Shown piece after piece: positions 29,647 through 61,745 of a stretch of DNA of 64,000 nt (positions are counted from its first letter, which is position 1; each line of letters begins with the position of its first letter). This DNA comes from Phaeodactylibacter luteus. Lineage in GTDB: Bacteria > Bacteroidota > Bacteroidia > Chitinophagales > Saprospiraceae. The DNA lies in contig NZ_VOOR01000018.1 in NCBI RefSeq assembly GCF_007993045.1, forward strand, positions 1 through 64,000, given 5' to 3'. Under the pieces are notes generated by a model that made no database searches, was not told the origin of the DNA, and was given only the letters and a program-made list of their open reading frames with translations. The translations under genes were made by a program, and so were the position numbers.

Positions 29647-29701
29647 TGCCAAAAGCAGCACAGCCCTTACAGAAGGCAGCCTAGGGATATGCAGGGCGCA
29701 A

Positions 29702-38151: not shown

Positions 38152-38379
38152 AAGGGGCATAGTTTGAATTGGGGCAATAGGCCGGCTGTTTTCCTGCGTA
38201 TCAGGTAGTTTTTGGCCAGACGGCACGACTTTTATAGCTCGCGTAGCAGTGGCCTAAGCAAAAAGCCGAGCACAATAGGGGTATACCTGCAGCTATGTTG
38301 GCGTAGGATAGTTGGTTTTCAACACAGCAGCATTTATCCTTCAGCGATTTGCTGATCGCTACGTGAGCATGCACAGGAT

Positions 38380-39239: not shown

Positions 39240-39468
39240 TTTTTGTTCTAGTGATTGAGGTGCCTGCCGCTTGTTTTTACCCGATGGTTTTGGAGCCGGG
39301 GCAGTGCAACAATTCAATGGAAGGGGCCTAAAGATGTGTTGGGTTCTTTAAAGTCAAGATTCTGATTTTAAGTGTTTTATGGTGTTTTGTTGCTGCTGGA
39401 TTAGTTAAAAAAAAAGGCGGTCTCATTTATTTTCGTGATTTGAGACAGAGGCTAAAGGGAAGGGGCTA

Positions 39469-39476
39469 TATGTTTG
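39469..39476 (+). promoter_or_regulatory. Candidate -7 box of the collar/giant cluster
   Basis: TATGTTTG fits TAnnTTTG. A TTTG lies 26 bases upstream, farther than usual. A start near 39483 would leave a 45-base leader before the ATG at 39528 and exclude the earlier in-frame ATG at 39474. Confidence 0.35.
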
Positions 39477-39527
39477 AGTAGAGACGGAAAGAATACGTCA
39501 AACCCAAACTTAATTGATGCATTGACC

Positions 39528-40415
39528 ATGAAACAGCTCCTTACTTTCCTAATGCTTTTCTCCGCCTTTGCCCTTTGGGCACAGGTAGGCGCCCCCCGCC
39601 TGAATGTACAGGGCGCCCTCAAAAACTCCGATGGGGCCGCTATACCCGATGGCACCAAGACCATGACCTTTAAGCTGTACCACGATGGGGCTGGAGGGAC
39701 GGCACAGTGGCAAGAGACTGCTGAAGTAACCGTCACAGGAGGCGTGTACAACTACAACCTGGGGAGCACGACCCCTATCGATTTGGATGTTTTTTCCCAG
39801 CGCGTATACCTCGGGGTAACGGTGGATGGCACCGAGCTGACCCCCCGCGTGGAGCTGACCTCTGCCCCCTACGCCCTACATGCCCACTCTGCAACTACTG
39901 CTGTCTCCCTGACCGGCTGCAAAGGGGCGGTGGGCGATGTCAAGTACTCCATCCTCCCGCTCGATCAGTTCAGGCAGGAAAACGGCGATTGCTGGGTATT
40001 GATGAATGGGGTCGGGCTCTCTTCGGATACCAAGCTCAATGCCGCTTACGGCATAGCTGAGCTGCCCGATGCCCGGGGGCTCTTCCTGCGGGCGCACGAC
40101 GACCGCAACAGCAACCGCCAAGACCCCAGCCGCTCGGCTGATACGCCGCCCGGTACCTACGTAGGGGACGAGATACGGTCGCATAATCATGGGGTGAATG
40201 ATCCTGGGCATAGTCATAATAGGGGTGTAAGCCATCCAAATACATTTCCAGAAGCTGTCTCAAATGCCGAGCAAAACCAAAGTGGAGGTGTAGAAGACCG
40301 AAGCCATTTTGGCCCTACAACGACTTCCACCACTGGCATTTCCATTCAGCACACCGGCGGAGCCGAGACCCGGCCGAAGAGCATCAACCTCTACGTCTAC
40401 ATCCGCATCAATTAA
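39528..40415 (+). CDS. Secreted tail-collar-like fibre protein 1
   Basis: A 295-residue exported protein. A signal peptide ends FALWA|Q. An N-terminal beta domain follows (RLNVQGALKNSDGAAIPDG, TMTFKLYHDG, VYLGVTVDG, LTPRVELTSAPYAL; about 20-125). The C-terminal half resembles phage tail-collar/fibre tips: NGDCWVLMNG, PDARGLFLRAHD, then the His-rich SHNHGVNDPGHSH. A variable segment of about 46 residues and the closing GGAETRPKSINLYVYIRIN come last. In phage fibres, HxH sites bind metal in a trimer. There is no T9SS sorting domain. It is the first gene of the 22-kb cluster, 33 bases before giant 1. The function is unknown; an adhesin tip is the best guess. Confidence 0.85.
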   Translation: MKQLLTFLMLFSAFALWAQVGAPRLNVQGALKNSDGAAIPDGTKTMTFKLYHDGAGGTAQWQETAEVTVTGGVYNYNLGSTTPIDLDVFSQRVYLGVTVDGTELTPRVELTSAPYALHAHSATTAVSLTGCKGAVGDVKYSILPLDQFRQENGDCWVLMNGVGLSSDTKLNAAYGIAELPDARGLFLRAHDDRNSNRQDPSRSADTPPGTYVGDEIRSHNHGVNDPGHSHNRGVSHPNTFPEAVSNAEQNQSGGVEDRSHFGPTTTSTTGISIQHTGGAETRPKSINLYVYIRIN

Positions 40416-40448
40416 GAGAGGACTTCACAACCGGTAAAAAGCAGGGCA

Positions 40449-43400
40449 ATGAAAGAACAAATACGTAGGGCCGTATACCTGGTCATTTTATGCCTACCCT
40501 TTGGGCTGAACGGACAGGTGGATACCGTCTGCTACCCGGAGCCGGCCTCAACGGTTGCAGCCGTGGAAGCCTACTTTACCTACGGCAGCAAGGCCAATGC
40601 AGTGAGCAATACCAGCCGGTTGGACATAACGGTAGGGCAATCCCTGACCGAGCAGTTCTTCTCCGGCGACATCCTGATGAGCACAGGTTTTTGGGGGCGT
40701 TTCCTTGCTCCCCCGCTGAAGCCCACCGTGGTAGCCACCAAAGGAGAATACCCGGACCGCATAGACATCACCTGGAACCTTGGCCCCTTTAGCCCAAGGG
40801 CTACGGATGGATGGATCATCCGGCGCAATGGCTCCGTCATTGCCAACCTTGACCGGTCGGCTAAAAAATTCATTGACTTCAACGCACAAGCCGGAGAGGT
40901 CTATGTTTATGAAGTCATTGGCTTGAATGTCTTTGGCGATGGCTCGGCAGGTTCTGATGTCGGCTTCGTCAACCCTAATGGAGTGGTGGCTGGCAAGGTA
41001 GAGACCAATAGCCAAAACCCGGTCAGGGAAGTGGCGGTAACCCTTACCCCAACGGTAGGCTATGCCCTCCGCTTTGACGGAGTGGACGACTACCTGTGCA
41101 TGGACTATAAAGAAGCCCTGCCCGATACGGCATTCACTTTCACCGCATGGGTGAAGATAGCCGAAGATGCCCCACAGCGTGCCGGCATTATTGATCTAGG
41201 TAGCGACCTCAGCCAAAATTGGTGGGTGCACGCCGTTTCCACTCCTCAGGGCAAAGGGATTGTTGCGGGGGTGGGCGATGGTACCCCCCACGAGCTGACC
41301 TATATATTCGAGCACAACCCGGAGGGTTGGCATCAGGTCAGTTTTGCTTACGCTTCCGGCCTATGCCTGCTGTATGTAGACGGTGTATTTGTGCAAGCCA
41401 TGCAAGCCAGCATGCAGCCTGCCCCGGCCCGGTACCGCATAGGGTCCTTCCGCAATGAAGGCGGGAACTTCAAGGGGTTGATCGACGATGTACGGATTTT
41501 TGACCGCCTGCTCAGTCAGCGGGAACAGCTGCTGTACGAAGGCATCACCGTTTCGAGAAACACCCCCGGATTAGTAGCTTACTGGAAGTTTGACGAGGGC
41601 ATGGGGGAGAAAGTTTTTGACATTACCGATAACGACTTCGATACCCTACTCGAAGGCCCGGCTTTTGATGCGGATGATGCGGGAGTCAGGAACGGGGCCA
41701 TCACCGACGAAGCAGGCATTTATGTTATCGAGTCCATCAATTACAGCGCTGCTCAGACCTTTCAGGCCCGGCCAAATAAGAGTTTCTACGAAAATTACGC
41801 TTTGGAGTTCAACCCTGTATTTCAAAGCAAGGTGAAATTGCCAGCATTTGATCTGCCGGATAGCAGCCTTACTGTGGAATTACTGCTCAAACCGTTTAGC
41901 GGCAGCTTCCGGCAGACCCTTCTGGCACACGAAAGCGGTAATTTCGAGTGGTACATAGAAGATGGAAGCTACTATTTATCTACAGGCGGGGCACCCATCC
42001 AACTCGGGGCCGTAGATACCGGCTATCAGTTGCTTGCGCTTCGTATCGATCGGTTGGGGCAGTCTGTGAGCAGTTATATTGGCAGTACAGAAGTAGCAGC
42101 GGCCCAAGGGCTGGCTTGGTCTTCTGATTACAGCAATGGGCATTGGTATGTAGGCTCCGGGCCTGACGGCGAGCATACATTGCTCGGGCTGGTAGACGAA
42201 CTGGCTATATTTGATACCCTCCTCCCAATGGCAGATTTGTTGGAGCATGTAGATGTGAATGTAGGGATAGACCCTGGTGATGCCCGCCTCGCCAATTATT
42301 TTGCTTTCAACGAAGGGAGCGGTACGGAAGCCCGGGATGCCGGCGAAATGATGACGGGCTTTGGGCAGCTTTCCGGGGTGGAGTTTACGCCTCAGGCCTA
42401 CCGGCAGAAAGCTACGCCACATGCTTTTTCCCCCGGTGTGCGCGTGGTCAGCCTGAACAGTAGCAATACTGCGGTTGGTGAAGTAGACTTTACGGACCAA
42501 TCTTCAGTGCCCATTGCCGGAGTAGTCCGCTACATCGATACGGACTGTTATGCGCCCAATACCGAGATTTTTGTAAATGGGGCCGCTGCCCTTCCTCCTA
42601 TCAAGACCGATGCTGACGGGCGCTTCGTAGCTGATTTTGAACCGGGCTCGACCATCCGCCTGCAACCGGTGCGCGGCGAACAGACTTTTTTGCCAGTTAT
42701 TTTTGAAGCCCCCAGCCTGCAAACGCCCATAGCCGGAGTCTTATTCCAAAACCAAACCAAACGGACGGTGGTCGGGCAGGTAGCTGGCGGGCTGTGCCGG
42801 AAATCCATCATCCCCAGCCCCAATGAGGGGGTAGTTCAAGTCAAAGCCCGTACCCTGAATGGATGTTACGAAAAAACCCTGAACGTCCCAGCTAATGGCA
42901 AGTTCGCCTTCACCGATCTGCCCCCGGATTCTGTATCCATAGCGGTGGTAACCCACCCGGACCCTGATGTACAGTCGTTCATGAGCGAGCTTGGAGGAGT
43001 TGTCCTCGATATGCGCTTCACCGAGCGGGATACGGTAGACTTCATTTACCGCTCCAGGCCTGAGCTGGAGTTTTCCGACCTCCCCACCAACAGCCGGGGC
43101 GATTTTATGCTGCAGATGAAGCAGCCCAACCAATTGGATATCCGGGTGTATGAGCCTTACTACGATGGGGTGTGTTATCTGGATACCGCAGAGTTGGTCA
43201 TCACCAATGATTTGGCCGATTACACCGAGGACATTGATACCCTTATGACGGAAGGTATCCTCCGGCACCGGTTCAGAGCCGGTTGGCCAAGGACGGTAGG
43301 CGACTATAAAAAGCCTATTGTTGTAAAAGCCAGAAGAGACAGTGCCGATACCTACGTAGACGGGCAGATCAGAGCGGTAGTCTTGGGCAAAGTCCCCCTT

Positions 43401-46400
43401 TCCACTCCGTTTGCCACCACATCCCCGGCTATCCCTTTTCTCGTTTTGCATGACCCCCCGGGCGACGGCAGCTTCGCTTATGTAGAATCCGGGCAGACGA
43501 CCTGTAATCAGATGAGCTTTACCATAGGCGGAGGGGGTGAGGCTGTGAATAGCAGACAAGTATCCCTTGGCCCCGATATTTCGGTAGACGTGGGCCCACC
43601 GGTGGCCCAAATCTCTATACCCATAGAGACCACTCTTGATTTTGGATATTCCGTCAGTCTGGGGTTTGATGCCTATTTGAGCAATGAGATGGAAGTATGT
43701 GTAACCACCACAGAGACGATTTCCACTTCGGATGAAGATTTGATCGTAGGCAGCAGTATGGGCGGAGATGTATTTGTGGGCGCAGCGGTGAACATCCTGT
43801 ATGGGAAGTCGCTGGAGTTGAGCTACAATGACACTACAGAGCAATATGTGATCAGCGAAGGCATCTTGGTACAGCCCGATGGGTTTGAGACGACCTTTAT
43901 TTACACAGAGCGGCAAATCCGGGATATCGTCATCCCGGCTCTTATACTTATAAACGATACCGAGTCTGTTGATGCCTGGAACAGGATACTGGCGTACAAC
44001 GAGCAAAACCGGGCGAATGCTCCCTTCCGGGAAAACATCTCTTTTGCTTCCGGCACCGTGTACGAGGAATCGTTCACTTCTGAGGAGACAACCATTTCTA
44101 CATCCGGCAATGAGTTTAGTACCCGCCTTGGCGGATTTGTTGCCACAGGGGGGACACTAAACGGTGTAGGGGCACTGGAAGAGTTATCGTTGGGCATTAC
44201 TTTCAACAGGAGCACCGAGAACAGCAGCAGCAGCCAAACTTCGCGCACGGTAGGGTATACCCTTGCTGATGATGACGTATTCGACAACTTCACGGTGGAT
44301 ATCCGGGAGGATAGGGTTTATCAAGTGCCGGTCTTTGACCTCAAAGCTGGTCAATCTTCCTGCCCACACGAGCCCAATACGCAGCACCGGGAGGAAGTAT
44401 CACTTTCCGTCGGCAATGCAGTAGCGACCAATATCAATTCCACCGATGCGGCCGTATTCAACCTTAGCTTGGGCAATTTGGCCCCTTCCGGGGATGTCGG
44501 CTTCTACACTTTGGCCCTTGTACCGGAGAGCAACCCCGATGGAGCAGCATTTACGATCAATGGAGATGCACTCCTGGGCGACGGGCAGGTCTACCAAATC
44601 CCAGCAAACGGCAGCCAAACGGTAACCCTGTCTGTAGAAAGAGGGCCGGAGGCTTATGTTTATGAAGACCTCAAGGTAGCACTGTACTCTGAGTGCGAGT
44701 TTGAACGGGCTGTCGGGCTGGGCATCCCACGGGCAGGGGTCAATCCGCTTTTTTACAAAGAGCTGGAGCTAGATGTCTATTTCCTGGAGCCTTGCAGTGA
44801 GGTCAACATCAGCGCACCTATGCAAGATTGGGTCATTACGCCTCAAGATCAGGATACGCTGTTCATTACTTTGAACGGTTACGATAAAAACGACGACGAC
44901 CTCGTCTTGATCCGCTTGCAGTACCGTCCAGAGGTTGGAGATGGCAGCTGGATCAACATAGCCGAGATCCCCAAAGATTCACTAGGCGAGGTCTTCGAGG
45001 TGGCCACTTGGAGTTTGTCAAACCTCAACGATGGCGCCTATGAGCTCAGGGCGGTTACTCAATGTGATGACCCAGCCCTGAACCCTGGTTTTTCGGAGGT
45101 CATTCGTGGAAGGAAAGAAACCCGCCCCCCGAGGCTGTTGGGCACCCCGCAGCCCTCTGATGGGGTACTGGGCCCTGGGGATGAAATCTCTATCCGCTTC
45201 ACCAAGCGTATCGATTGTAATGATATTACACAGGCAGAGGGCATAGGGACGAACATACAAAACAACAACGTGGGGTTGTACGATGCGGCCACTGGTGTTT
45301 TGATAGACGCCATTATTACCTGCAATGAGGACGAGCTGAAAATCGTGCCCAATGTCCCCAATCAGTATATCGAAAACCGGCTGCTGAGGGTGAAAGTAGA
45401 AGCAGTGGAAGACCTCTTTGGCAATGCATTAGCTGTGCCTGTGGTATGGGAGTTTCAGGTCAACCGCTCTGCGCTGTACTGGTCGGAGCCCCGTATCAAA
45501 GAAGCGGTTGTGGAAGGCAGCGGCCTGGCTGTGGCGCGAGAGATCATTAATCAGGGAGGAGCAGCATTTAGCTATCAGCTGCAGAACATCCCGGATTGGC
45601 TAGAGGTATTCCCCACTACGGGTACGGTCCCACCTGGTGTATCTGAGACGGTCATGTTCCAAGTAGATAATGACTTGCCGCCCGGAGAGTATCAGGAGGT
45701 GCTCAATATGGTGACCGCTCAGGGGGTAGAGCCATTCGATTTAGATATCAGGGTGGTATGCCCTCCTCCGGTTTGGGAGGTCAACCCCAATACTTTCAGC
45801 TATTCGATGAGCTTCACTCTGGCATTGGATATTGAAGGGGCAATGTCTCAAGACCCCCTAGACCAGATTGGGGCTTTTGTTGGCGGGGAGTTACGGGGAG
45901 TTGCCAATGTGGAGTTTGTCCCCGAACTGAGTGCCTATATGGCCTTTCTCACCGTCTATAGTAATCAGCCTACAGGTGAGAGCATCGCTTTCCGTGTTTG
46001 GGACGCCCGGGAGTGCATACTCTACGGCAGCACTGCGGAGTCTTTTTCTTTCATAGCCGACGAGCTCGTTGGTTCGCCGGGAGCTCCTCAGGTACTGCAC
46101 ACGAACAACCTGCTGCTGCGTAAAATAGCGTTTGATCCAGGCTGGAACTGGTTCTCTTATAATGTAGAAGCACCTGAGCCGGCCCTCAACAATATACTCG
46201 CTGCACTGAGCCGTCCGCAGGGAGGGACAATAAAGGGCCAGGCTGCGTTTAGTGTTTTTTTTGATGCAGGCAATGTATGGACTGGCGCGCTGCAAGCTTT
46301 GTCCCACGTCCAAAGCTATCAGTACAAATCCTCCGTCCAAGATTCCCTGCTCATTTTGGGCCACCCGGTCAATCCGGATTCTGTCCTCATCCCCCTTCAG

Positions 46401-47303
46401 CCGGGCTGGAATTGGATCGGCTATCTGCCGCAGCAGGGGCTCAGTATAGACAGCGCCCTGACGGCACTTGAGCCCGCAGCGGGCGATATCCTGAAATCAC
46501 AGGATGCATTTGCACAATTTGTTCCCGGTATTGGCTGGATTGGCAGCCTCGGTTTTATGCAGCCCACGCGTGGTTATCAGCTTTATTTGCAAAATGGAGG
46601 GACATTGGCCTACCCGGCCCTGAGCGGAGGTGAGGCACCACAGCTCAGTGGTGGCACTAGCGTAGAAGAGCGCAGTACTCCTTTATTTTGGAAGGCAGAC
46701 CCAAGGGCTTTCGAAAGGAGTATGAACATCATCGCGCTCGTGGAAGCATCGGATAAAGGCGGCAACATCTTGGAGGCATATGATGAGGTTGGCGCATTCT
46801 CAGGGGGAGCGCTTCGAGGGAGCTGCCGCCCGGTTTATGTCCCTCATCTCGATGCTTACCTCGCTTTCCTCACGGTATATGGAGCAGAAGATGCTGGCGA
46901 TATCCGTTTCCGCTACTACGAGGCCGAGAGTGGAGCGGTTATCCCCCTGGAAGAGTCGGTCCCTTTCGTATCAAACGCGGTACTCGGCACCGTAGCAGAA
47001 CCTCAGCCGCTGACTCTGGGCAGCAATACTGTAGAAGGACAAGAGCATGACAGGCTACGGGTATATCCCAATCCGGCAAGCGAATCCATCAGCCTCCACT
47101 TTTATGCCCCGCTCCCTGGGCCTGCAACTATAGGCCTTTACGATGCCTTGGGGCGAAAAGCAGCAGAGCAGAGCCTGAGCGCTATTGCCGGAGAAAACCA
47201 ACTCGATTGGCAGCTTCCCGGCACATTGCCATCCGGGCTTTACTTCCTGCGGCTGCAGCTGGGCAATCAATATTTTACAAGCAGACTGGAAATTCAAAAG
47301 TAA
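40449..47303 (+). CDS. Giant LamG/FnIII surface protein 1 with T9SS type A domain
   Basis: A 2284-residue secreted protein. In order it has a signal peptide (LPFGLNG|Q), a domain ending in STGFWGRF (24-92) and an FnIII-like domain (95-178). Two LamG-like domains follow (about 204-385 with LRFDGVDDYLC and VAYWKFDEGMG; about 449-625 with LANYFAFNEGSG), then a carboxypeptidase-regulatory-like segment (687-745) and a long middle region (1000-1440) opening with LHDPPGDGSFAYVE. A Big_5-like domain comes next (1558-1672), then a BACON-like domain. Then come the W-x-V-N-P module (1773-1865) and two PGWNW repeats (1895-2055). A second copy of the module precedes the type A sorting domain (RLRVYPNPASESISL to the end). 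It is paralogous along its length to the protein at 50231-57124 and is probably a surface-anchored, ligand-binding fibre. Its stop overlaps the next start (TAATG). Confidence 0.9.
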   Translation: MKEQIRRAVYLVILCLPFGLNGQVDTVCYPEPASTVAAVEAYFTYGSKANAVSNTSRLDITVGQSLTEQFFSGDILMSTGFWGRFLAPPLKPTVVATKGEYPDRIDITWNLGPFSPRATDGWIIRRNGSVIANLDRSAKKFIDFNAQAGEVYVYEVIGLNVFGDGSAGSDVGFVNPNGVVAGKVETNSQNPVREVAVTLTPTVGYALRFDGVDDYLCMDYKEALPDTAFTFTAWVKIAEDAPQRAGIIDLGSDLSQNWWVHAVSTPQGKGIVAGVGDGTPHELTYIFEHNPEGWHQVSFAYASGLCLLYVDGVFVQAMQASMQPAPARYRIGSFRNEGGNFKGLIDDVRIFDRLLSQREQLLYEGITVSRNTPGLVAYWKFDEGMGEKVFDITDNDFDTLLEGPAFDADDAGVRNGAITDEAGIYVIESINYSAAQTFQARPNKSFYENYALEFNPVFQSKVKLPAFDLPDSSLTVELLLKPFSGSFRQTLLAHESGNFEWYIEDGSYYLSTGGAPIQLGAVDTGYQLLALRIDRLGQSVSSYIGSTEVAAAQGLAWSSDYSNGHWYVGSGPDGEHTLLGLVDELAIFDTLLPMADLLEHVDVNVGIDPGDARLANYFAFNEGSGTEARDAGEMMTGFGQLSGVEFTPQAYRQKATPHAFSPGVRVVSLNSSNTAVGEVDFTDQSSVPIAGVVRYIDTDCYAPNTEIFVNGAAALPPIKTDADGRFVADFEPGSTIRLQPVRGEQTFLPVIFEAPSLQTPIAGVLFQNQTKRTVVGQVAGGLCRKSIIPSPNEGVVQVKARTLNGCYEKTLNVPANGKFAFTDLPPDSVSIAVVTHPDPDVQSFMSELGGVVLDMRFTERDTVDFIYRSRPELEFSDLPTNSRGDFMLQMKQPNQLDIRVYEPYYDGVCYLDTAELVITNDLADYTEDIDTLMTEGILRHRFRAGWPRTVGDYKKPIVVKARRDSADTYVDGQIRAVVLGKVPLSTPFATTSPAIPFLVLHDPPGDGSFAYVESGQTTCNQMSFTIGGGGEAVNSRQVSLGPDISVDVGPPVAQISIPIETTLDFGYSVSLGFDAYLSNEMEVCVTTTETISTSDEDLIVGSSMGGDVFVGAAVNILYGKSLELSYNDTTEQYVISEGILVQPDGFETTFIYTERQIRDIVIPALILINDTESVDAWNRILAYNEQNRANAPFRENISFASGTVYEESFTSEETTISTSGNEFSTRLGGFVATGGTLNGVGALEELSLGITFNRSTENSSSSQTSRTVGYTLADDDVFDNFTVDIREDRVYQVPVFDLKAGQSSCPHEPNTQHREEVSLSVGNAVATNINSTDAAVFNLSLGNLAPSGDVGFYTLALVPESNPDGAAFTINGDALLGDGQVYQIPANGSQTVTLSVERGPEAYVYEDLKVALYSECEFERAVGLGIPRAGVNPLFYKELELDVYFLEPCSEVNISAPMQDWVITPQDQDTLFITLNGYDKNDDDLVLIRLQYRPEVGDGSWINIAEIPKDSLGEVFEVATWSLSNLNDGAYELRAVTQCDDPALNPGFSEVIRGRKETRPPRLLGTPQPSDGVLGPGDEISIRFTKRIDCNDITQAEGIGTNIQNNNVGLYDAATGVLIDAIITCNEDELKIVPNVPNQYIENRLLRVKVEAVEDLFGNALAVPVVWEFQVNRSALYWSEPRIKEAVVEGSGLAVAREIINQGGAAFSYQLQNIPDWLEVFPTTGTVPPGVSETVMFQVDNDLPPGEYQEVLNMVTAQGVEPFDLDIRVVCPPPVWEVNPNTFSYSMSFTLALDIEGAMSQDPLDQIGAFVGGELRGVANVEFVPELSAYMAFLTVYSNQPTGESIAFRVWDARECILYGSTAESFSFIADELVGSPGAPQVLHTNNLLLRKIAFDPGWNWFSYNVEAPEPALNNILAALSRPQGGTIKGQAAFSVFFDAGNVWTGALQALSHVQSYQYKSSVQDSLLILGHPVNPDSVLIPLQPGWNWIGYLPQQGLSIDSALTALEPAAGDILKSQDAFAQFVPGIGWIGSLGFMQPTRGYQLYLQNGGTLAYPALSGGEAPQLSGGTSVEERSTPLFWKADPRAFERSMNIIALVEASDKGGNILEAYDEVGAFSGGALRGSCRPVYVPHLDAYLAFLTVYGAEDAGDIRFRYYEAESGAVIPLEESVPFVSNAVLGTVAEPQPLTLGSNTVEGQEHDRLRVYPNPASESISLHFYAPLPGPATIGLYDALGRKAAEQSLSAIAGENQLDWQLPGTLPSGLYFLRLQLGNQYFTSRLEIQK

Positions 47304-48352
47304 TGGGCAATATCAATAATCATTTTTCTGGGCTAATGCAAAACCAACACTATGGGCAGAAGGTGGCAGTTTCAGACAGTTGGCAGCAGTTCCGGGTTAT
47401 ACTAAAGGCTGGCGCGTTGCTACTGCTCGGCCTGCTGCCGCTGCCGCTGCTGTCGCAGGAGGCCGGCTCCCTGCTCAATGTACAGGGCTTTGTACGGGAT
47501 GTGCTCGATGGCCCTCTGGCCGATGGGGCACAGACCATGACCTTCAAATTATACCGTAGCGAGAACGGTGGATCTGTGCTCTGGCAGGAAATTGCCGAAG
47601 TGAATCTTTCCGGGGGTGTCTTTAGCCATAACCTGGGCTCCGAAAACCCCCTCGACCCTGAGGTTTTTGACGATCAGTTGTACCTGGGCATAACAATTGA
47701 CGGGCAGGAGCTGCGCCCGCGGGTGGCTTTCACTAGTGCCCCTTACGCTATGCGCGCGCTTACAGCAACTACGGCTGATCAGCTCATCGGCTGCCTGGGG
47801 GCTGTGGGGGATGTGAAAATCTCGGCACTCGCGCCCGATAAGTTCCGGGAGCAGAACGGCGATTGTTGGGTGCTTATGGATGGGCAGGGGCTAGGGTTGA
47901 ATACCCAATTGCGGGAACTGACGGGCATGGAGGAGGTGCCGGATGCCAGGGGGATGTTCTTGCGTGCCTTTGACGACCGGGGCGATCAGGGGCGGGACCC
48001 CGACCGGGGGAATAGCCCGGCTGTCGCCACGGTGCAGTTGGATACCTTTGCCAGCCACACCCATAGCCTGAATGACCCGGGGCATAAGCATGCGTTTACC
48101 GATCGGTTCAATCCCGACAATCGACGGTTTAATGATGGAAATCTCTGTTTGTTCAAAAAAGATGTGGCGGGTTGGATTAATGCTGCTGAAACAACCCGGA
48201 CTACGAATGAGATACCTAATCCACTTTTTCCGTCACTCCCCCCTGAGAACGAGAAAATCCCCACCGGAATTACCCTTCTGGAAGGCGGGTCAAGTGAGGT
48301 GGAAACCCGGCCGGAAAACCTCAACTTTTACATTTACATCCGCATCGATTAA
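47303..48352 (+). CDS. Secreted tail-collar-like fibre protein 2
   Basis: A 349-residue paralogue of fibre protein 1. The start at 47303 shares one base with the stop of giant 1 (TAATG), which implies translational coupling. An internal ATG at 47336 could also serve. The hydrophobic signal sequence (LLLGLLPLPLLS|Q) is preceded by an unusually long N-terminal stretch of about 40 residues. The beta domain (LLNVQGFVRDVLDGPLADG, YLGITIDGQEL) and collar part (NGDCWVLMDG, PDARGMFLRAFD, SHTHSLNDPGHKH) match. The variable tip is the longest of the four at about 69 residues. It ends VETRPENLNFYIYIRID. Confidence 0.85.
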   Translation: MGNINNHFSGLMQNQHYGQKVAVSDSWQQFRVILKAGALLLLGLLPLPLLSQEAGSLLNVQGFVRDVLDGPLADGAQTMTFKLYRSENGGSVLWQEIAEVNLSGGVFSHNLGSENPLDPEVFDDQLYLGITIDGQELRPRVAFTSAPYAMRALTATTADQLIGCLGAVGDVKISALAPDKFREQNGDCWVLMDGQGLGLNTQLRELTGMEEVPDARGMFLRAFDDRGDQGRDPDRGNSPAVATVQLDTFASHTHSLNDPGHKHAFTDRFNPDNRRFNDGNLCLFKKDVAGWINAAETTRTTNEIPNPLFPSLPPENEKIPTGITLLEGGSSEVETRPENLNFYIYIRID

Positions 48353-48374
48353 CACAAGGAAAACTACAGTAGCA

Positions 48375-49280: not shown

Positions 49281-49290
49281 AAATCATGCC

Positions 49291-50208: not shown

Positions 50209-50230
50209 AACAACGAAAAAGTTTGAGCTT

Positions 50231-53200: not shown

Positions 53201-56200
53201 GCCACTACTTCACCCGGTATCCCAATGCTCATTCTGCACGACCCGCCAGGAGATGGCAGCTATGCTTTTGTAGAGGAAGGGGAAACGACCTGCTCTGCCC
53301 TCACCTTTTCTGGGAGCATCGGTGGCGATGCTTCAGTGGAGGCCGTGGTTTCGCTTGGAGCAGACCTATCTGTCGACGTTGGGATCGGGGCAGGGATCTC
53401 GCTTGATGTTGATAACACCCTTGACATCGGGGCCACCTTTGAAATGTCGTACAACAACTTTACCAGTAAAACGGCAGAGCTCTGTATGACGACTACCAAG
53501 ACCATTTCTACTTCCGATGAAGACCTGGTAGTCGGCAGCAATATGGGGGGCGATGTCATTATGGGGGCAGCGCTGAACCTGCTGTACGGCATAACAGATG
53601 AGCTCAACTACATTGAGGCAGATTCGGCCTACGACCTTAGCCAGGGTATCTACGTTTTCCCGGAAGGCTTTGCCACCACCTTTTTATATACAGAGCGGCA
53701 GATTAGGGATATTGTGATACCGGGTTTACAGACCATTGGAGATATGGCCTCTGTAGATCGTTGGAACAGCATACTAAACACCAATGAAACCATTCGAAAT
53801 GTAGCCGCATTCAAGGAGAACATCTCCTTTGCTGCGGGGACGGTTTTTGAAGAAACCTACACTTCAGAGGAGGCCACTAGTGCAACCCTTGGTGGAGGAG
53901 TTACTACAAGATTTGCCATATCAGGGGCGGTCGGAGCTGCCGTTGCTGGTATTGGCGGGGAGGTCAGTACGGAGTTAGGCGTTACGCTTAGCGGCGGGAG
54001 CGAAATAACGGACACAGAGCAATCTACCCGTACGGTAGGCTATGTGCTGACCGACGATGATGTATTTGATAATTTCACAGTAGACATCCGCGAGGATAAG
54101 GTATTCAAAGTACCGGTATTTGACCTCAAGGCGGGCACAACTTCTTGCCCGAACGAGCCCACTTCCTCTTTTTTGGATGCCCAACAGCAGTATTCCGAGC
54201 ACCGCGAAGAGGTAGGCCTTTCGGCGGATCGCCTGGCCGCGACAAACGTGAACGCGGAAGATGCAGCAGTCTTCACCCTTTCATTGGAAAACACAGCCCC
54301 TTCCGGGGATATTGGGTTTTATATCCTGGCCCTAGTGCCGGAGAGCAACCCGGATGGTGCTGCGCTGAGTGTAAATGGAGATGCCCTCCTCGGAGACGGG
54401 CAGATGTATCAAATCCCGGCTAATGGCACGCAAACAGTCACCCTGACGATAGAACGGGGGCCGGAAGCGTACACTTATGAAAACCTGCGCATCGCCCTAT
54501 ATTCAGAATGCGAGTTTGAGCGGGCAGTAGGGCTCGGCATCCCCCGGGCAGGGGTGGATCCACGCTTTTATAAAGAGCTGGAGCTCGATGTCTACTTTCT
54601 GGAGCCTTGCAGTGAAGTCAGCATTGGCTCGCCCATGCAGAACTGGCTGATTACCCCTGAGGATACCAACCGGCTCCTCATTACGTTGAATGGATACGAC
54701 AAGTCAGATGCTGACTTGCAGCTCATCCGGCTGCAGTACCGGCCGACCATGGGCGACGGCAGCTGGATCAATATTGCGGAAGTGCCCAAAGATTCACTAG
54801 GAGCGCTTTTTGAAGTGGTGGAATGGGATTTATCCCCTCTGAACGATGGCCCCTATGAGATACGGGCAGTAACCCAATGCTCCGGTACGAGCCTGCCGCC
54901 GGGGTTCTCCAAAGTCATTAAAGGGCGTAAAGAAACACAGCCTCCCCAATTGTTTGGCACTCCCAAACCTGCCGATGGCATCCTGAATTTGGGCGATGAA
55001 ATTTCGGTCATGTTTACCAAGCGGGTAAACTGCAACCAAATCATACAGGCTGCAGGCATCGGTTCCAATATTCAGAACAACAACTTGGGGCTTTATGATA
55101 CAAGCACGGGGGAATTGGTCGATGCGGTCATTTCTTGTAGCGAAGATGAAATTGTCATTGTGCCCAATGTAGCCAATCCGTTTATTGAGAACAAAACGCT
55201 CCGTGTGAGGGCAGAGGGGATTGAAGACCTCTTTGGCAACGCTATGCAAACCCCTATCGTATGGGAGTTCTTTGTCAACCGTTCGGCATTGTACTGGTCT
55301 GAGGCCCGGATCAGCGAGGTGGTTACGGAAGGGAATACCTTAGTCATCGAACGGGAAATCAAGAATCAAAGTGGGCTGGTACAGAGCTTTGAGCTGCAGA
55401 ATATACCAAGTTGGGCACAAGTGTCCCCTATGATGGGGAGCATACTGCCCGGAGGCACTGAGACAGTTACCTTCACCGTAAGAGATGACTTGATCGCTGG
55501 CGCGTATAGTGGCCTGCTGCAGATGGTCACCGCAGAGGGTTCAGAGCCGCTCACTATGGATTTGCGGGTCGTCTGCCCTCCTCCTGCATGGAGTGTCAAT
55601 CCTATGGCGTTCAGTTCTTCCATGAACCTTACCCTAGCCCTGAGCATAGAGGGGGAGCCCTCTTCTGACCGGCTCGATAAGGTAGCCGCTTTTGTCGGGG
55701 GAGAGCTGAGGGGCACTGCAGATGTTGAGTTTGTGCCTCAGCTCAATACCCATCTGGTATTCCTAACTGTATACAGCAATCAGCCTACAGGAGAAGAGGT
55801 TACCTTTAAAGTCTGGGATGCAGAAGAATGTATCCTTTACAACAGCACGCAGGAGTCTTTCCCCTTCACCGCAGGTGGGTTTGTCGGCAATCCCACCTCA
55901 CCTCAGGCCTTGAATACCAATGTCAGGCAGTTGAAACGTATCCCTTTGTACCCCGGCTGGAACTGGATCTCCTATAACGTGGAGGTGGACAACCCCGCTA
56001 TTGGGCAAGTGCTTTCTAGTGTTTCAAGGCCAGAAGGGGCGACCATCAAAGGGCAGTCGGCTTTTGCGCTGTACTTTGAAGCGGGCAACGCCTGGGCAGG
56101 TACATTGACAGCGCTCAGCCACACTCAAAGCTATCAGTATAAGTCTACCTTTATTGATTCTTTATGGGTTGAGGGGCGGCCTGTCGATACGGATTCTACC

Positions 56201-57124
56201 GTCTTGTCGCTGCAGCCGGGCTGGAACTGGATCAGCTACTTGCCACAGCAAGGGCTTCCTGTGGATACTGCTTTGGCTTCCCTCTCCCCCTCCAATGGGG
56301 ATGTTGTCAAAGGGCAAGGGACTTTTGCACAGTATGTAGCCGGTGTGGGCTGGGTAGGCAACCTCAACTTTATGAGCCCAACTAAAGGGTATCAGATACG
56401 CTTGCAAAATGGAGGGGCTTTGGCCTATCCACAAAGCTTGAGTGGCGCGGGCGAAGAAGAGCTGCGCGTTCCGTACCGCTTAGCAGAGCGGCTGCCTTCT
56501 GCCTATTGGGAAGTTGATGCTTATGATTATGAGCTCAACATGAACTTGGTGGCTATTGTGCAGGGAGAAGACGGCGAGGTACTGCTCCAAGAAGGAGATG
56601 AAGTAGGTGCATTTGTCGGCGAACAACTGCGCGGTGCAGGGCCGGCCATATACATAGAGGCCCTCGGTGCTCACCTGGTGTTCCTTACGGTCTTTGCTAA
56701 TGAAGAGGGAGAGCCTCTGTCTTTCCGCTATTATGATTCAGCTGTAGGCGAGGAACGCCTATTGTCCGAAGAGCTCACCTTTATCTCCAATACGGTCTTA
56801 GGGGAAGTGGAGAGCCCGGTACTTTTGTCATTGTTACCTCCCAGCAGTAGTAACGGCTATCGGTCTAAAGGGTTGTCCTTCCGGGCTTACCCAAACCCTG
56901 CCCAAGACGTAGCCTCAATGGAGTATCATGCCCCAAGAGCAGGCGAATCATTGGTATGCCTATACGATTTACTCGGCCGGGAGGTCGGCAGACTGGAGGG
57001 TACTGCTCAGCCTGGTCTCAATGTTCTAGAGTGGCATGTACACCATTTGCCAGATGGGCTATACTTGGCTGTGCTGCGCACTGGCGGACAGCAAGCCGTA
57101 CAAAAAATAGAAATCCGAAAATAA
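50231..57124 (+). CDS. Giant LamG/FnIII surface protein 2 with T9SS type A domain
   Basis: A 2297-residue paralogue of giant 1 with the same domain order. It has a signal peptide (VLGQA|Q), the SGGFWGRL domain and an FnIII-like domain. Two LamG-like domains follow (LSFDGQDDFLC, VAYWKFDEGTG; LANYFGFDEGSG), then a carboxypeptidase-regulatory-like segment. LHDPPGDGSYAFVE opens the middle region, which is the part most different from giant 1 (about residues 1020-1320). Big_5-like and BACON-like domains, the W-x-V-N-P module, two PGWNW repeats, a second module and a type A sorting domain (SFRAYPNPAQDVASMEY) complete it. It is the last of the tightly spaced genes; a terminator-like hairpin follows. 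Confidence 0.9.
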   Translation: MKAYPYLLYLLLLCPVLGQAQPETECNPLAASDIASGEASVYFGSVSNALSATRKANFTVGQPATGQAYSGTGLLSGGFWGRLLAPPIGPVVRASQGDFPDRIEIRWTMDPFSPKASGGFILRRDGSTIANLNRSSTSFIDFNVQAGEFYTYEVIGINAFGQGFPGSNVGFVNPNGVVTGRVETASQNPVKEVVVTLTPTAGYALSFDGQDDFLCMSYQDALPDTAFTATAWVKVGGAEERTGIIDLGSDLNKNWWLHAVNTPEGKGLIAGVGDGAPHEVVYLFEDAPSGWHHVAFTYASGLGMLYVDGKFAGLLQAPMLTEPARFRLGAFREEGGFFAGRLDDVRIYDRMLTQRELLLFKGITASSLADGLVAYWKFDEGTGAKIFDITANDFDTELDGPAFDTDSAPVLNGGVTDEAGLYYIEGVNYSQAQSFQAKPSKKFYDSYALEFNPAFDSEARLPAFDLPDSLFTLTLAAKPFSQQLRQTLLAHESYELEWYVEDGNYWLTTGGSPVNLGPVDTGYQVLSLLIDRVGQTVSSYIDSNQVGGSQPLQLSQDYSGGHWYIGSRPDGQHTLLGLVDEWAVFDTLLPVADLQLHAASTGGIDPGDTRLANYFGFDEGSGAEVRDAGELMTGFGQLKGIVFTPDAYRQRARPHLFSPASRIVNLNTSNTAIGEINFRDNSTVPVAGVIRYLNTDCAAPNTEIYVNGAPRIPPVKTNEEGRFIAEFEPGATVRLQPVREGQAFLPAVFETFNLQSPIAGVLFQNQTKRTVVGRVAGGLCGATIIPETGSVKVKARTLNGCYEKEITISPGNTAGTFVFDDLPPDSIEIAVSHHDIPEIKSYLQSQIGGVTLDMRFTERDTVDFVYRSSPELEFSELPQNSIGDNMLSMTQPSQLNIKVFEPYLRGETCYLDTAELVITNEIADLTEDIDTLMTAGVLIHTFKAGAPNIIESEGFRKKIEVKARRDSSSNYVAKSVEAVVLGRRPRETQFATTSPGIPMLILHDPPGDGSYAFVEEGETTCSALTFSGSIGGDASVEAVVSLGADLSVDVGIGAGISLDVDNTLDIGATFEMSYNNFTSKTAELCMTTTKTISTSDEDLVVGSNMGGDVIMGAALNLLYGITDELNYIEADSAYDLSQGIYVFPEGFATTFLYTERQIRDIVIPGLQTIGDMASVDRWNSILNTNETIRNVAAFKENISFAAGTVFEETYTSEEATSATLGGGVTTRFAISGAVGAAVAGIGGEVSTELGVTLSGGSEITDTEQSTRTVGYVLTDDDVFDNFTVDIREDKVFKVPVFDLKAGTTSCPNEPTSSFLDAQQQYSEHREEVGLSADRLAATNVNAEDAAVFTLSLENTAPSGDIGFYILALVPESNPDGAALSVNGDALLGDGQMYQIPANGTQTVTLTIERGPEAYTYENLRIALYSECEFERAVGLGIPRAGVDPRFYKELELDVYFLEPCSEVSIGSPMQNWLITPEDTNRLLITLNGYDKSDADLQLIRLQYRPTMGDGSWINIAEVPKDSLGALFEVVEWDLSPLNDGPYEIRAVTQCSGTSLPPGFSKVIKGRKETQPPQLFGTPKPADGILNLGDEISVMFTKRVNCNQIIQAAGIGSNIQNNNLGLYDTSTGELVDAVISCSEDEIVIVPNVANPFIENKTLRVRAEGIEDLFGNAMQTPIVWEFFVNRSALYWSEARISEVVTEGNTLVIEREIKNQSGLVQSFELQNIPSWAQVSPMMGSILPGGTETVTFTVRDDLIAGAYSGLLQMVTAEGSEPLTMDLRVVCPPPAWSVNPMAFSSSMNLTLALSIEGEPSSDRLDKVAAFVGGELRGTADVEFVPQLNTHLVFLTVYSNQPTGEEVTFKVWDAEECILYNSTQESFPFTAGGFVGNPTSPQALNTNVRQLKRIPLYPGWNWISYNVEVDNPAIGQVLSSVSRPEGATIKGQSAFALYFEAGNAWAGTLTALSHTQSYQYKSTFIDSLWVEGRPVDTDSTVLSLQPGWNWISYLPQQGLPVDTALASLSPSNGDVVKGQGTFAQYVAGVGWVGNLNFMSPTKGYQIRLQNGGALAYPQSLSGAGEEELRVPYRLAERLPSAYWEVDAYDYELNMNLVAIVQGEDGEVLLQEGDEVGAFVGEQLRGAGPAIYIEALGAHLVFLTVFANEEGEPLSFRYYDSAVGEERLLSEELTFISNTVLGEVESPVLLSLLPPSSSNGYRSKGLSFRAYPNPAQDVASMEYHAPRAGESLVCLYDLLGREVGRLEGTAQPGLNVLEWHVHHLPDGLYLAVLRTGGQQAVQKIEIRK

Positions 57125-57140
57125 CCATTTCCCCTTTTCC

Positions 57141-57170
57141 GGGGGTGCAACTGATTTGTACCCCCCTTTT
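57141..57170 (+). terminator. Intrinsic terminator after giant 2
   Basis: GGGGGTGCAA and TTGTACCCCC form a 10-bp stem (one G-U) around CTGAT, followed by CTTTT. It lies 17 bases after the stop codon and separates the cluster from the HYR-repeat gene. Confidence 0.8.
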
Positions 57171-57188
57171 GGTTAAAACCCTACAGCA

Positions 57189-60100
57189 ATGAAGCTCCTT
57201 TTTGACAACTTAAAGTATTTGGCCTGCCTGGCAGTTTGGGCTGTTTTGCCATCACTTGCTTATGCTCAGGCTCCGGACTGGCAGGCTCCTGCACCCGGTA
57301 CTTACAATTATAGCGCAACAGTCACCGCGATCATCTCTATAGAAGGGCAGCTGTCCAACCGTCTGGAAGATCAGGTAGCCTTTATTTCCGATGGGGAGGT
57401 CGTTGGCTTGAGCAGCCCTTTCATGATCAATGGCATTACCTATCATTTTGCTACTGTTTTCTCCCATGAGCCAATGGCCGAGATCGAGGTTTGGGTTTAC
57501 AGTGATGAAGAAGATGAAGTTATCGAAGCCCTCTCTGCGCTCTCTTTTTCTCATCAAGCCGAGTTTGGCAGCCTTTTAGCTCCTTACGTAATCGATGCTT
57601 ACCCCGGAGGTGATGCCCCGATTTTGCTCAACGGCATACCTACCCGTTTCTCCTTGCAGGGGCAGGCGTTCAGCCCGTTTTCCTTGAGCCCCTACTTAGT
57701 ACAACTTGATGACGACCCCGTCTCTTGGACCGCCGAGCCCAACCCTAGCCTTGAGGTAGCTTTTTCTGGCGACACCCTTTTGGTGACACCTGTGCCGGAG
57801 TTCTTTGGGACGACTTATCTGATTGTGCGCGCTACAGAGCAAACGGCCAATGCCTACACTGCTGCTACTGTTATAGAATTTAAAGTAGAGCCAGGTTTCG
57901 ATGGGCCTTCCTGGGAGGAAATCCCCGGGCAATACGCCCCTCCCGGAAGTAGCTTCATGGAGGTAGACTTGGCTGCCTATGAAACGCAGTATTCGGGCTC
58001 TTGTCTGGATTTCGCGGTAACGCCAGTATTGGATACAGGCATGGTAACTACTCCGCCTGCCTGGGCGGCAGAAGTCAACACCGGATTGCCCCAGGAAATG
58101 TCGATCGTGGCGAGAGCTTATTTCACGCCGTCTTATATGTTCAACCAACCTGGAGACTTGTTGGTGTTCCGTTCGGCGGGTGTTGTCCGGGGGGTTGCTG
58201 CCCCTACTTTTGTCAATCAATCTGCAATGTTTTTCGCTACGGTCTACAATGAGGTGCCAGTGGATAGCCTCGAAGTACAGTTGTACAGCGCAGCTCACCA
58301 ACGGGTATTTGACCTGCCGGTAAAGGTGCCCTTCAGTACCAACGGTGAGCTAGGGAGCGCTCAAGGGCCCTACCGTCTAGACTTTTCCCCATTCAATCTT
58401 GAAATAACGGCGGAGGGCATTCTTTCTGTACAACCACAGTCCCCATTGTTTAAAGGGGCTCAGTATTACACCTTTGAGGCTGCCGATTGCGATTATCCGG
58501 CACTTTTTCAGGATACCGTGAGTACTTATATTTGTTACGATGAGGATACCGATGAAGATGGGCTCTGTGATGCATTAGACCCCTTTCCTACAGACCCTTG
58601 TGCACCTGATAATGACATGCCGCCTCTGTGGGTGCTGAATGCCGAAGGGGATACCCTGGTTAGCGGGGATACGCTTTATCTGAATACAGCCCCAGATACC
58701 TGTGGGCTGCTCCTCTCTTGGCGTACGATTTCTGCCGAGGATTGTGCGTTGCCTGTCGTCCTGGCAGAACTTTTCAGCCCAGACGCGCTCTCTACGGCTT
58801 TTTTGGAGTTGGTCAACCCGGACTCTGGCTGGTATGAATTGTCATTATATGCAGCCAGAGGATGGAATGAGCTTAGCATGAGCAGTGAAGATGAAACGGG
58901 TAACCGAACGGCTTTTGTCTATTACCTGGCTGTGGCCGATAGCACAGCACCGGTGCTTTCCTGCCACAATTATACAGCTTACCTTGACAGCGCCGGAACG
59001 TTCGCTTTAGCGCCTTTCCACCTTTTACAACAGGATGCTTACGACAACTGTAGCATAGACAGCCTATGGCTTAGCACAGATACCCTAGGCTGTAACCTTG
59101 CTGGAACTGCCCCGGCCATTACGCTCTCTGCTCTAGACCCTACGGGCAATCTCTCTTCCTGCACAGTGGAAGTAACGGTGCTGGACACGATAGCGCCAAG
59201 TTTCAGCTGTACGGATATTGCCGTAGAGGTGGGCCTGGACGGCAGCGTTCCGATTGCGGCCCCGGACATTGCCACGGATATTTCAGACAACTGCGGCATA
59301 GACAGCACCTGGCTCAGCGTGTACAGCTTCGCCTGCGGGGATGCCGGTACGAACGCAGTGATGTTCACCGCCTTAGACGTCAACGGCAACAGCGCTTCCT
59401 GCATGGTCAACGTAGAAGTTTCGGACCCTCATTTGCCCGAGGTGAGCTGCAACAACCTGACGGTCTACCTGGATGAAGACGGCGCAGCCTCCATCGTATA
59501 CGGAGATGTATTGGCGTACAGCGACAATTGCGGCACAGTGGACATCCGCCTGGAGCGGTCTGCATTCGGTTGCATGGACACCGGCGCCCCGGTCAGCCTT
59601 GGCATAGAAGTAGAAGACCCGGCGGGCAACCTCAGCAGCTGCACAGTGGAAGTGACAGTGCTGGACACGATACGTGCAGCCTTGTCGTGTACAGACGTAT
59701 CAGTAGAGGTAGGCCCATCCGGGACCACCGGAGTAGGCCCTGATGATATTATCGTGTCTTTGTCAGACAACTGTGGGGTGGACTCGGTCTGGCTGGCCGG
59801 AGGCACTTTCGATTGTGCCTCAGCTGGCACCAATGAGGTGACCGTGAGCGTTTTGGACGTGAACGGCAACCTGTCTTCTTGCACGATTGATGTTTCGGTA
59901 TCCGACCCTACCGCGCCCAGTGTGACCTGCTTGGACATTGTACGCAACCTATCGCTGTCGGGCACCGCTTCTGTATCTGTTGATGACCTGCTGCTGGCTG
60001 TGTCAGACAACTGCAGCGATGTATCCCTGAGTTTGTCGCAAGAGTCGTTCGATTGTAGCGAAGCCGGGACAATAGTGCCAGTGGTGTTGTCTGCAGAGGA

Positions 60101-61745
60101 CCCTGCGGGCAATGTGAGCAGCTGTACGGCATCCGTGCAAGTGCGTGATGTCAGCCCGCCCCAGTTATTGTGCACAGATGTGACAAAGCTGGTCGGCAGC
60201 AATGGGGCCGTTTCGCTCGCTGTAGAAGATGTGGTCTTGTCTTTAGGCGACAACTGTGGGGTGGACACCATGTGGCTGAGCGAAGAGCTGTTTAACTGCA
60301 GCGATGCGGGCATCAACGAAGTGTCCTTTACGGCAATGGATGTGAACGGCAATACTTCGAGCTGCAGCGTATCCGTAGAAGTTGTCGACCCGGTATCGCC
60401 CCAGCTGTTCTGCACAGGCATCTTTCGCCAGCTAAACAACAATGGGGAGCGGACGATCACGCCTAACGAGCTGCTGCAGGGCTACACAGACAACTGTATG
60501 GGCGAGCTGCAGCTGAGCCTCTCGCAGAGCTATTTTGATTGCAGCAATGCTGGGCAGGACATCCCCGTTGTGCTTACTGCCGAGGATGAGGCAGGCAATA
60601 TCTCGAGCTGCGAGGTAGCGGTCTCCATCAGAGACACCTACGCCCCGGAAGCCGTCTGCATGCCCGCCACCGTGGAGCTGGGGCCTGATAATGGAGAAGG
60701 CTTCCTGCCTGCATTTTCGGTAGACGGAGGCAGTACCGACAACTGTGTATTGGGCATTGAGCTGGAGCTGAGCCAAGCCTACTTCACTTGTGAAGATGCC
60801 GGGGTGCAGGAAGTAGAGCTGTATGTGCGCGATGCAAGCGGCAACGAAAGCAGCTGCACGGCTCTAGTGGAGGTCATCGTTACAGGCGAGCTGAGCGATG
60901 GCTGGCAAGGCGAGGATATCGGCGCTGGCGCAGCAGGCGGTGTCTACGCATATACCCCCTGCTCTGGCGAGGGGCTGTTCTCCGTAAGCACGCCGGGCTC
61001 ACAGCCGCTGTCTTCACTGCAAGACGAACTGGGCATGATCAGCCGGGAAATGTGCGGCAATTTTGAAGCTTACGCAAGGGTAGTGGAGACCAATGGCAGC
61101 TACGGCGGCCTGATGGTGCGCGAGAGCAGTGCGCCAGATGCGCGGTACGCGGCCCTGTTCACGAACTGGTCACAGACGATGCGGTGGGAGGTGCGCACCA
61201 ACCCTGGCGGCGGCCGTCAGGTGCAGTTGCGTACAGGCTTCTCGCCCCGTGGGCTCTATTTAAGGCGTACCGGGTATTTGTTCCGTGCCTATTACCAGCC
61301 GCTCGGGAGCCTGACGTACACATTGGTCTCCCAGGCCAACCTGTTCATGCCCGATTGTGTGGAGGTGGGCATGGCTGCCTTCCGCGCAGGCGGGCAGGTG
61401 ATCGGTGAGGTGACCTTCGGGGAGGTATTTTTTGAGGAAGATGCTTTCCAGCCATCTGCGCCTTGGGGCTTGCAGGGCGGAAGCCCGGGCACCGCAGGAG
61501 AGCTGAAGGCCTGGCCCAACCCCGCACGCAACTCGGTGCAGGCATCTTGGGGCACTCCTCTGGAAAACGGTGGGCAGCTTAGGCTGCTGAGCCAGCTGGG
61601 GCAGGCCGTCCTAGAGCTGCAGCTATTGCCGGGCGAAGCAGCTGCTAGCGTACCCCTCGATGGCATTGCGCCAGGCTTGTATTACCTGAGTATAACCGGT
61701 GCCGGGGCCGCCCCGATGCGTACCGCTATCACAGTAGTACGGTAA
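57189..61745 (+). CDS. HYR-repeat surface protein with T9SS type A domain
   Basis: A 1518-residue secreted protein. The signal peptide ends SLAYA|Q. Its N-terminus (PDWQAPAPGTYNYSATVTAI) is a copy of the W-x-V-N-P module found near the C-termini of both giants, and a second partial copy lies at about 235-400. After a calcium-binding-like DTDEDGLCDALDPFPTDPC stretch (thrombospondin-3-like, about 455) come eight HYR-like repeats of about 80-85 residues (about 580-1235). Each has four cysteines in the order C...DNC...C...SSC. A lectin-like or LamG-like domain (about 1250-1415) precedes a type A sorting domain (KAWPNPARNSVQASWG to the end). The shared module suggests it works with the giants, although a terminator lies between them. 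Confidence 0.9.
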   Translation: MKLLFDNLKYLACLAVWAVLPSLAYAQAPDWQAPAPGTYNYSATVTAIISIEGQLSNRLEDQVAFISDGEVVGLSSPFMINGITYHFATVFSHEPMAEIEVWVYSDEEDEVIEALSALSFSHQAEFGSLLAPYVIDAYPGGDAPILLNGIPTRFSLQGQAFSPFSLSPYLVQLDDDPVSWTAEPNPSLEVAFSGDTLLVTPVPEFFGTTYLIVRATEQTANAYTAATVIEFKVEPGFDGPSWEEIPGQYAPPGSSFMEVDLAAYETQYSGSCLDFAVTPVLDTGMVTTPPAWAAEVNTGLPQEMSIVARAYFTPSYMFNQPGDLLVFRSAGVVRGVAAPTFVNQSAMFFATVYNEVPVDSLEVQLYSAAHQRVFDLPVKVPFSTNGELGSAQGPYRLDFSPFNLEITAEGILSVQPQSPLFKGAQYYTFEAADCDYPALFQDTVSTYICYDEDTDEDGLCDALDPFPTDPCAPDNDMPPLWVLNAEGDTLVSGDTLYLNTAPDTCGLLLSWRTISAEDCALPVVLAELFSPDALSTAFLELVNPDSGWYELSLYAARGWNELSMSSEDETGNRTAFVYYLAVADSTAPVLSCHNYTAYLDSAGTFALAPFHLLQQDAYDNCSIDSLWLSTDTLGCNLAGTAPAITLSALDPTGNLSSCTVEVTVLDTIAPSFSCTDIAVEVGLDGSVPIAAPDIATDISDNCGIDSTWLSVYSFACGDAGTNAVMFTALDVNGNSASCMVNVEVSDPHLPEVSCNNLTVYLDEDGAASIVYGDVLAYSDNCGTVDIRLERSAFGCMDTGAPVSLGIEVEDPAGNLSSCTVEVTVLDTIRAALSCTDVSVEVGPSGTTGVGPDDIIVSLSDNCGVDSVWLAGGTFDCASAGTNEVTVSVLDVNGNLSSCTIDVSVSDPTAPSVTCLDIVRNLSLSGTASVSVDDLLLAVSDNCSDVSLSLSQESFDCSEAGTIVPVVLSAEDPAGNVSSCTASVQVRDVSPPQLLCTDVTKLVGSNGAVSLAVEDVVLSLGDNCGVDTMWLSEELFNCSDAGINEVSFTAMDVNGNTSSCSVSVEVVDPVSPQLFCTGIFRQLNNNGERTITPNELLQGYTDNCMGELQLSLSQSYFDCSNAGQDIPVVLTAEDEAGNISSCEVAVSIRDTYAPEAVCMPATVELGPDNGEGFLPAFSVDGGSTDNCVLGIELELSQAYFTCEDAGVQEVELYVRDASGNESSCTALVEVIVTGELSDGWQGEDIGAGAAGGVYAYTPCSGEGLFSVSTPGSQPLSSLQDELGMISREMCGNFEAYARVVETNGSYGGLMVRESSAPDARYAALFTNWSQTMRWEVRTNPGGGRQVQLRTGFSPRGLYLRRTGYLFRAYYQPLGSLTYTLVSQANLFMPDCVEVGMAAFRAGGQVIGEVTFGEVFFEEDAFQPSAPWGLQGGSPGTAGELKAWPNPARNSVQASWGTPLENGGQLRLLSQLGQAVLELQLLPGEAAASVPLDGIAPGLYYLSITGAGAAPMRTAITVVR

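Follow-up and report, generated by a model that had tools for sequence, protein, structure and literature searches.

What joins phage tail-fibre-like proteins to giant surface proteins when a bacterial genome sets their genes side by side? The question is raised by a cluster in the 64,000-nucleotide stretch of Phaeodactylibacter luteus that we analysed (NZ_VOOR01000018.1, positions 1–64,000; genome G000 in our set), here called the window. In this cluster four genes for exported, fibre-like proteins with collar-type tips (collars) stand with two genes for giants of the type IX secretion system (T9SS). The N-terminal domain of the collars (the N-domain) resembles that of the mosaic adhesive trimer (MAT) fibres. 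These fibres were described in Bdellovibrio bacteriovorus, a predator, and their surface partner or anchor was stated to be unidentified (PMC10769870). Our answer, which we hold with moderate confidence, is that these genes form a regulated cassette for MAT-like recognition fibres, with a functional tie to the T9SS giant, which is plausibly the surface anchor of the fibres.

Pairing of fibre genes and giant genes

We searched for the giants on their own, comparing the first 650 residues of giant 1 with 398 genomes of the same family, so that the selection was independent of the collars. The giant is found in 51 of the 398 genomes and in 21 of 112 genera. Fifty-seven regions, mostly from draft genomes, were fetched, and 50 giants had at least 700 bases upstream. 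A sequence-only reading of the window had inferred a fibre or adhesin complex of both protein types, an idea that would have been refuted had the two families not occurred together elsewhere. They do: an open reading frame (ORF) with the N-domain lies directly upstream, on the same strand, in 48 of these 50 giants. The median gap is 48.5 bases, and 43 gaps are under 100. Within 4 kb of the giant there is one N-domain copy in 37 cases, two in seven and three in four. As for the two exceptions, the upstream ORF in L145 is cut by the contig end and, judged from its sequence, reads as an S74-type C-terminus; in L127 the giant itself is truncated to 922 amino acids and a LytTR regulator lies upstream. 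A protein related to the HYR companion of the window is encoded directly 3' of 24 of the 36 testable giants.

The window genome has a second unit (G000:C248), consisting of three N-domain proteins, a giant and an HYR protein, and further units are found across the genus and in other genera of the family; the cluster is therefore not a chance arrangement.

The cluster and its proteins

The features of the cluster are as follows.

36511–38226, minus strand: TPR and AraC-type (HTH_18) regulator (Pfam), divergent from the cluster
38227–39527, no strand: 1.3-kb stretch between the regulator and collar 1, presumed promoter region
39528–40415, plus strand: collar 1, with MAT-like N-domain and gp12/gp37-like HxH collar tip, ending in ETRPKSINLYVYIRIN
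40449–47303, plus strand: giant 1, 2284 amino acids, with two LamG domains, a conserved beta-rich core with a Big_5-like domain and a T9SS type A sorting domain
47303–48352, plus strand: collar 2, its start overlapping the giant 1 stop
48375–49280, plus strand: collar 3
49291–50208, plus strand: collar 4, in the conserved position immediately 5' of giant 2
50231–57124, plus strand: giant 2, 2297 amino acids, paralogue of giant 1
57141–57166, plus strand: GC-rich stem-loop right after giant 2
57189–61745, plus strand: HYR-repeat companion protein, 1518 amino acids

The ORF coordinates agree with the order collar–giant–collar–collar–collar–giant on one strand and with the gaps given in the sequence-only reading (33, −1, 22, 10 and 22 bases); 64 bases follow ahead of the HYR gene, and the gap of −1 between giant 1 and collar 2 is a TAATG stop/start overlap. 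The same reading had described the collars as mutually paralogous, exported proteins with phage tail-collar-like tips and the giants as paralogous T9SS proteins of about 2.3k residues with LamG domains, and both descriptions hold. Collars 2–4 are 39–47% identical to collar 1, and the two giants are 61% identical. Its further claim of a domain shared by the HYR protein and the giants is borne out by a match of HYR residues 29–135 to giant residues 1774–1883 (E 3e-6). It contained nothing on the MAT-like N-domain, the swapping and hypervariability of tips, or the conserved regulator of each cluster type.

All four collars start with a putative Sec-type signal peptide (judged by eye). In PHROG, their C-terminal halves have matches among the tail collar fibre families (E down to 2.5e-14). 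A collar profile matches the structures of T4 gp12 (E 1e-4) and T4 gp37 (E 3e-4), and that of a further short tail fibre at E 1.6e-9. The collars and gp12 have the terminal ETRP-N motif in common. The Pfam Collar family (PF07484) is passed by the collar homologue of L060 (E 2e-18), while the window's own four collars have no Pfam match. At least two HxH motifs are found in all 15 of the 15 collar-type proteins. In gp37 the histidines of HxH bind iron, and function depends critically on the residues that come after an HxH (H929, H931 onward; PMC6957217). Concerning the N-terminal region, about 110 residues match NF053851 (Bdello_MAT_N) in collar 1 (E 1.9e-7), collar 2 (1e-5) and collar 3 (1e-3), and 11 of 21 N-domain members match it at E ≤ 0.01. 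A fold search with the collar model gave no significant match.

Collar-type genes also occur in other settings. Three tandem collar-type tail-fibre-like proteins with a diverged N-domain are encoded in L105 (G005:C308, 1517–4964), with no giant match within the fetched 6 kb. In L108 (G063:C30, 2979–4192) two short proteins encoded in tandem consist of collar tips and lack the MAT-like N-domain. In L062/L109 (G002:C29, 6441–7392) the collar gene upstream of the giant is apparently split over two frames, by sequencing error or as a pseudogene.

Each giant contains two LamG domains according to Pfam, and its T9SS type A sorting domain scores above the cut-off of 23 (40.7 and 31.3 bits); that of the HYR protein is below cut-off (18.2 bits). 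The C-terminal modules of the giants (residues ~1890–2190) are also seen in large proteins of a different overall make-up in gut Bacteroidota, rumen Prevotella among them (L084–L091).

Tips exchanged while N-domain and giant persist

Across 61 adjacent pairs, at least six unrelated tip clusters are found on one N-domain. Peptidase_S74 and Lcl_C tips exceed the Pfam cut-off on the same N-domain, as does Collar in L060. The Lcl_C-type tip stands on the N-domain protein directly 5' of the giant in L141, L143 and L146 (it was tested on L141, with which the other two cluster). In L123 and L124 the giants are 76% and the N-domains 90% identical, and the tips are unrelated. At the orthologous locus G000:C248/G005:C433 the giants are 72% and the flanking regulators 71–78% identical, and G005:C433 has one collar-tipped gene in place of the three other-tip genes of G000:C248. 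These sequence comparisons show that the tip has been exchanged over time while the N-domain and the giant persist.

Change is also concentrated within a single tip type. The loci G001:C90 and G003:C8 are 97.3% identical in DNA across 14.7 kb. In their collar gene the segment between the HxH-coding sites has 37 differences in 87 bases, and the rest of the gene 3 in 882 (Fisher p 4e-39, a descriptive value, as the later pairs were examined after this one had been noticed; the stronger argument is repetition in independent pairs). There are 54 differences in the 6933 positions of the giant and 1 in the 1308 of the HYR gene portion that is present, and the loop is the most diverged 90-base window of the 14.7 kb. 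A 50-codon block containing it has 15 nonsynonymous and three synonymous codons, and the differences in the loop include an indel. In three orthologous collar pairs of G005 and G001 identity is 81–90% up to the first HxH, falls to 26–35% in the loop and rises again to 94% over the last 16 residues; the 13 lowest-identity windows among 493, covering all proteins of the locus, are collar tips. The pattern recurs in the pair L148/L150, which has giants that are 95.5%, N-domains that are 98% and tips that are 61% identical.

A diversity-generating retroelement is an unlikely source of this variation, because there is no reverse transcriptase (RVT_1) in the window genome and no second copy of the loop in G001 or G003 (the latter 61% complete); the indel also speaks against it. 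Silent donor cassettes for the G003 loop were sought among six congeners, and none was found.

Taken with the pairing, these patterns suggest how the cassette could work. By its sequence the collar is a short fibre protein in which a MAT-like N-domain is joined to an exchangeable receptor-binding tip, and it probably forms a trimer. Of the cassette, the N-domain and the giant stay constant and the tip varies, and it is the tip that would make contact with the target. Since the tip holds a hypervariable segment between its HxH motifs, specificity could be renewed locally by diversification of this loop, and over longer times whole tips have been swapped for S74, Lcl_C or other tips. The giant would be secreted and attached to the surface through its T9SS sorting domain, and its near-invariant adjacency makes it the most likely anchor or export partner of the fibres, which we picture as trimers on the cell surface. 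Tips of the gp12/gp37 type and MAT tips are binders of surface glycans or proteins. By analogy, the target here may be bacterial surface glycans or proteins, possibly those of prey.

Control, history and competing readings

Each cluster type has its own regulator adjoining the first fibre gene (L028, L058–L061, L067 and the window). The AraC-type regulator of the window is 43–44% identical to the neighbours in L058 and L059, and its orthologues adjoin the orthologous clusters in G005 and G001; the TPR-AraC regulators of the window, G005 and G001:C18 are 43–69% identical. At G000:C248 and G005:C433 the regulator is a TPR histidine kinase with LytTR, and at G001:C90 and G003:C8 it is of LuxR type (GerE). 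The Bacteroidota promoter consensus TTTG-N-TANNTTTG has no occurrence in the window. A strong stem-loop (z < −2) lies in the 90 bases after 30 of 47 giants, compared with 7 of 64 N-domain genes (Mann–Whitney p 2e-6). Its position is kept but its sequence is not (window 57141–57166, L028, L058–L060, L063, L067, L068 and many of L110–L163). Some of these stem-loops have a T run and are terminator-like, others are not; in the window the stem-loop is present after giant 2 and absent after giant 1. Co-transcription of collars and giants is likely, given the short gaps, the stop/start overlap and a stem-loop that follows the giant and does not lie between the genes. With this layout, collar 1 through giant 2 could form a single transcript, and the HYR gene would lie behind a partial barrier.

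The sequence-only reading had explained the order of the genes by duplication of an ancestral collar–giant pair. The giant part of this stands: giants 1 and 2 are sisters with full support, next to the giants of G005:C389 and G001:C18, so the giant was duplicated within the lineage of the window. The single-pair ancestor is not established, because one giant is preceded by three collars in the sister loci of G005 and G001 and the collar tree is mostly without resolution.

A different explanation of the cluster is that the fibres and the giants are co-expressed but separate products, which answer the same signal and act independently, the fibres in recognition and the giant in binding matrix or polysaccharide. 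The operon-like layout would account for adjacency without contact, the conserved dedicated regulators suggest joint regulation, and core-only giants occur without fibres. We nevertheless regard it as fairly unlikely. In 21 genera the fibre gene stands almost invariably just 5' of the giant, and exchange has affected the tips but neither the N-domain nor the giant; both facts hint at something beyond joint regulation. An origin as phage leftovers or decoys, in which domesticated tail tips cover the cell's own phage receptors, would explain why the tips match phage tail proteins by profile. It is very improbable: tblastn gave no match to collar 1 in any phage record, no other phage genes were seen nearby, and a surface system of the cell itself is indicated by the signal peptides and by the T9SS giant alongside. 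The same tblastn result led us to reject recent acquisition from a phage.

The structure of the giant core raises another reading, a device for contact-dependent antagonism or predation in which the fibres aim and the core would act on the membrane of the target by means of two long beta-hairpins. As modelled by AlphaFold, the core is a chain of beta domains (predicted local distance difference test, pLDDT, 80; predicted template modelling score, pTM, 0.48) with two pairs of ~30-residue beta strands and helices between the pairs. In giant 1 the predicted long hairpins correspond to window positions 43400–44270 (residues ~1009–1092 and 1204–1273) and are near-constant in length and variable in sequence; a comparison of the giants of G005 and G001 also places the long-strand stretches among the less conserved regions. 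In Bdellovibrio, MATs are used in predation (PMC10769870). However, no Pfam pore-former family is common to the 28 members, a PDB fold search gave only whole-chain beta-domain matches (TM score ~0.1), and hydrophobic alternation in the long strands is inconsistent, so that there is no steady amphipathic pattern. A pore-forming core, which the hairpins had brought up, was dropped for lack of family, fold or amphipathic support. We consider the predation device improbable, and a membrane-active role of the modelled core is a possibility only.

Several points weigh against the cassette that we favour. The best NF053851 match is 31 bits, about half the curated cut-off of 60, which makes the relationship to MATs distant, and for this reason we call the collars MAT-like and not members of that family. 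No T9SS sorting domain was matched in the collars, which leaves them no evident route across the outer membrane. The collar structure model, made as a monomer, is poor (pLDDT 62), and the trimer and the fold of the collars rest on homology. Core-only giants (L070–L077) have no N-domain neighbour; the fibre link is thus limited to the LamG-type clade, and the giant fold can do without fibres. The loci come mostly from draft genomes, as noted, and the putative collar–giant contact in a physical complex is read from gene adjacency. The more specific proposal, that the T9SS giant is a dedicated surface dock of the MAT-type N-domain within a recognition system that is complete in itself, swaps its tips and has a hypervariable receptor loop, is accordingly tentative, and we rate it as possible but short of probable.

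If the giant is such a dock, it would give, at the level of genes, a candidate for the sort of anchor by which MATs are fixed to the surface in Bdellovibrio; the near-invariant pair across the family is in itself a concrete partner candidate for MAT-type fibres. With its hypervariable loop flanked by fixed HxH motifs, this cellular adhesin resembles the host-range tips of phages, and recognition specificity and its diversification thereby become open to study outside phages. Loci that are 97% identical and differ most in one 87-base loop of the fibre gene are natural allele pairs. The components are of known kinds, whereas the pairing throughout the family and the occurrence of a hypervariable HxH loop on a cellular adhesin are apparently new; no published description of either was found in the open literature searched, which omits most subscription papers.

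Among known systems, the Bdellovibrio MATs (PMC10769870; NF053851) share with the proteins studied here a conserved N-domain with exchangeable C-terminal tips, S74 and non-S74, a phage-tail-fibre-like character and several copies per genome. Of the two Bdellovibrio MAT subfamilies, one is characterised by S74, and S74 tips are found on the N-domain here as well. In contrast to those MATs, which are typically ~1000 amino acids long, the fibres here are mostly ~250–630 amino acids, their genes lie directly 5' of a T9SS giant, tips of the HxH collar type are frequent and the N-domain match is below threshold. The likeness to T4 gp12 and gp37 (PDB 1OCY, 5IV5, 2XGF) consists of a profile match across the tip, the HxH motifs and the ETRP-N segment (gp12); unlike these phage proteins, the collars are chromosomal, have a signal peptide and no tail, and carry a MAT-like N-domain in place of the fibre shaft.

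The window also contains, at 21434–32079, a separate CHU_C-type T9SS giant (2391 amino acids) followed by PorP/SprF and an OmpA/PD40 protein; this is the usual SprB/SprF-like layout and has no relation to the collar cluster. SprB of Flavobacterium and the grappling hook GhpA of Aureispira, the latter serving prey capture (PMC11205867, PMC13319060), are, like the giants of the collar cluster, very large T9SS-linked surface proteins. A GhpA-like grappling hook was rejected, as neither giant has a DUF11 repeat match in Pfam. Unlike SprB and GhpA, the giants described here combine LamG domains with a conserved unnamed core, have a fibre gene as a near-obligate neighbour and do not lie beside PorP/SprF.
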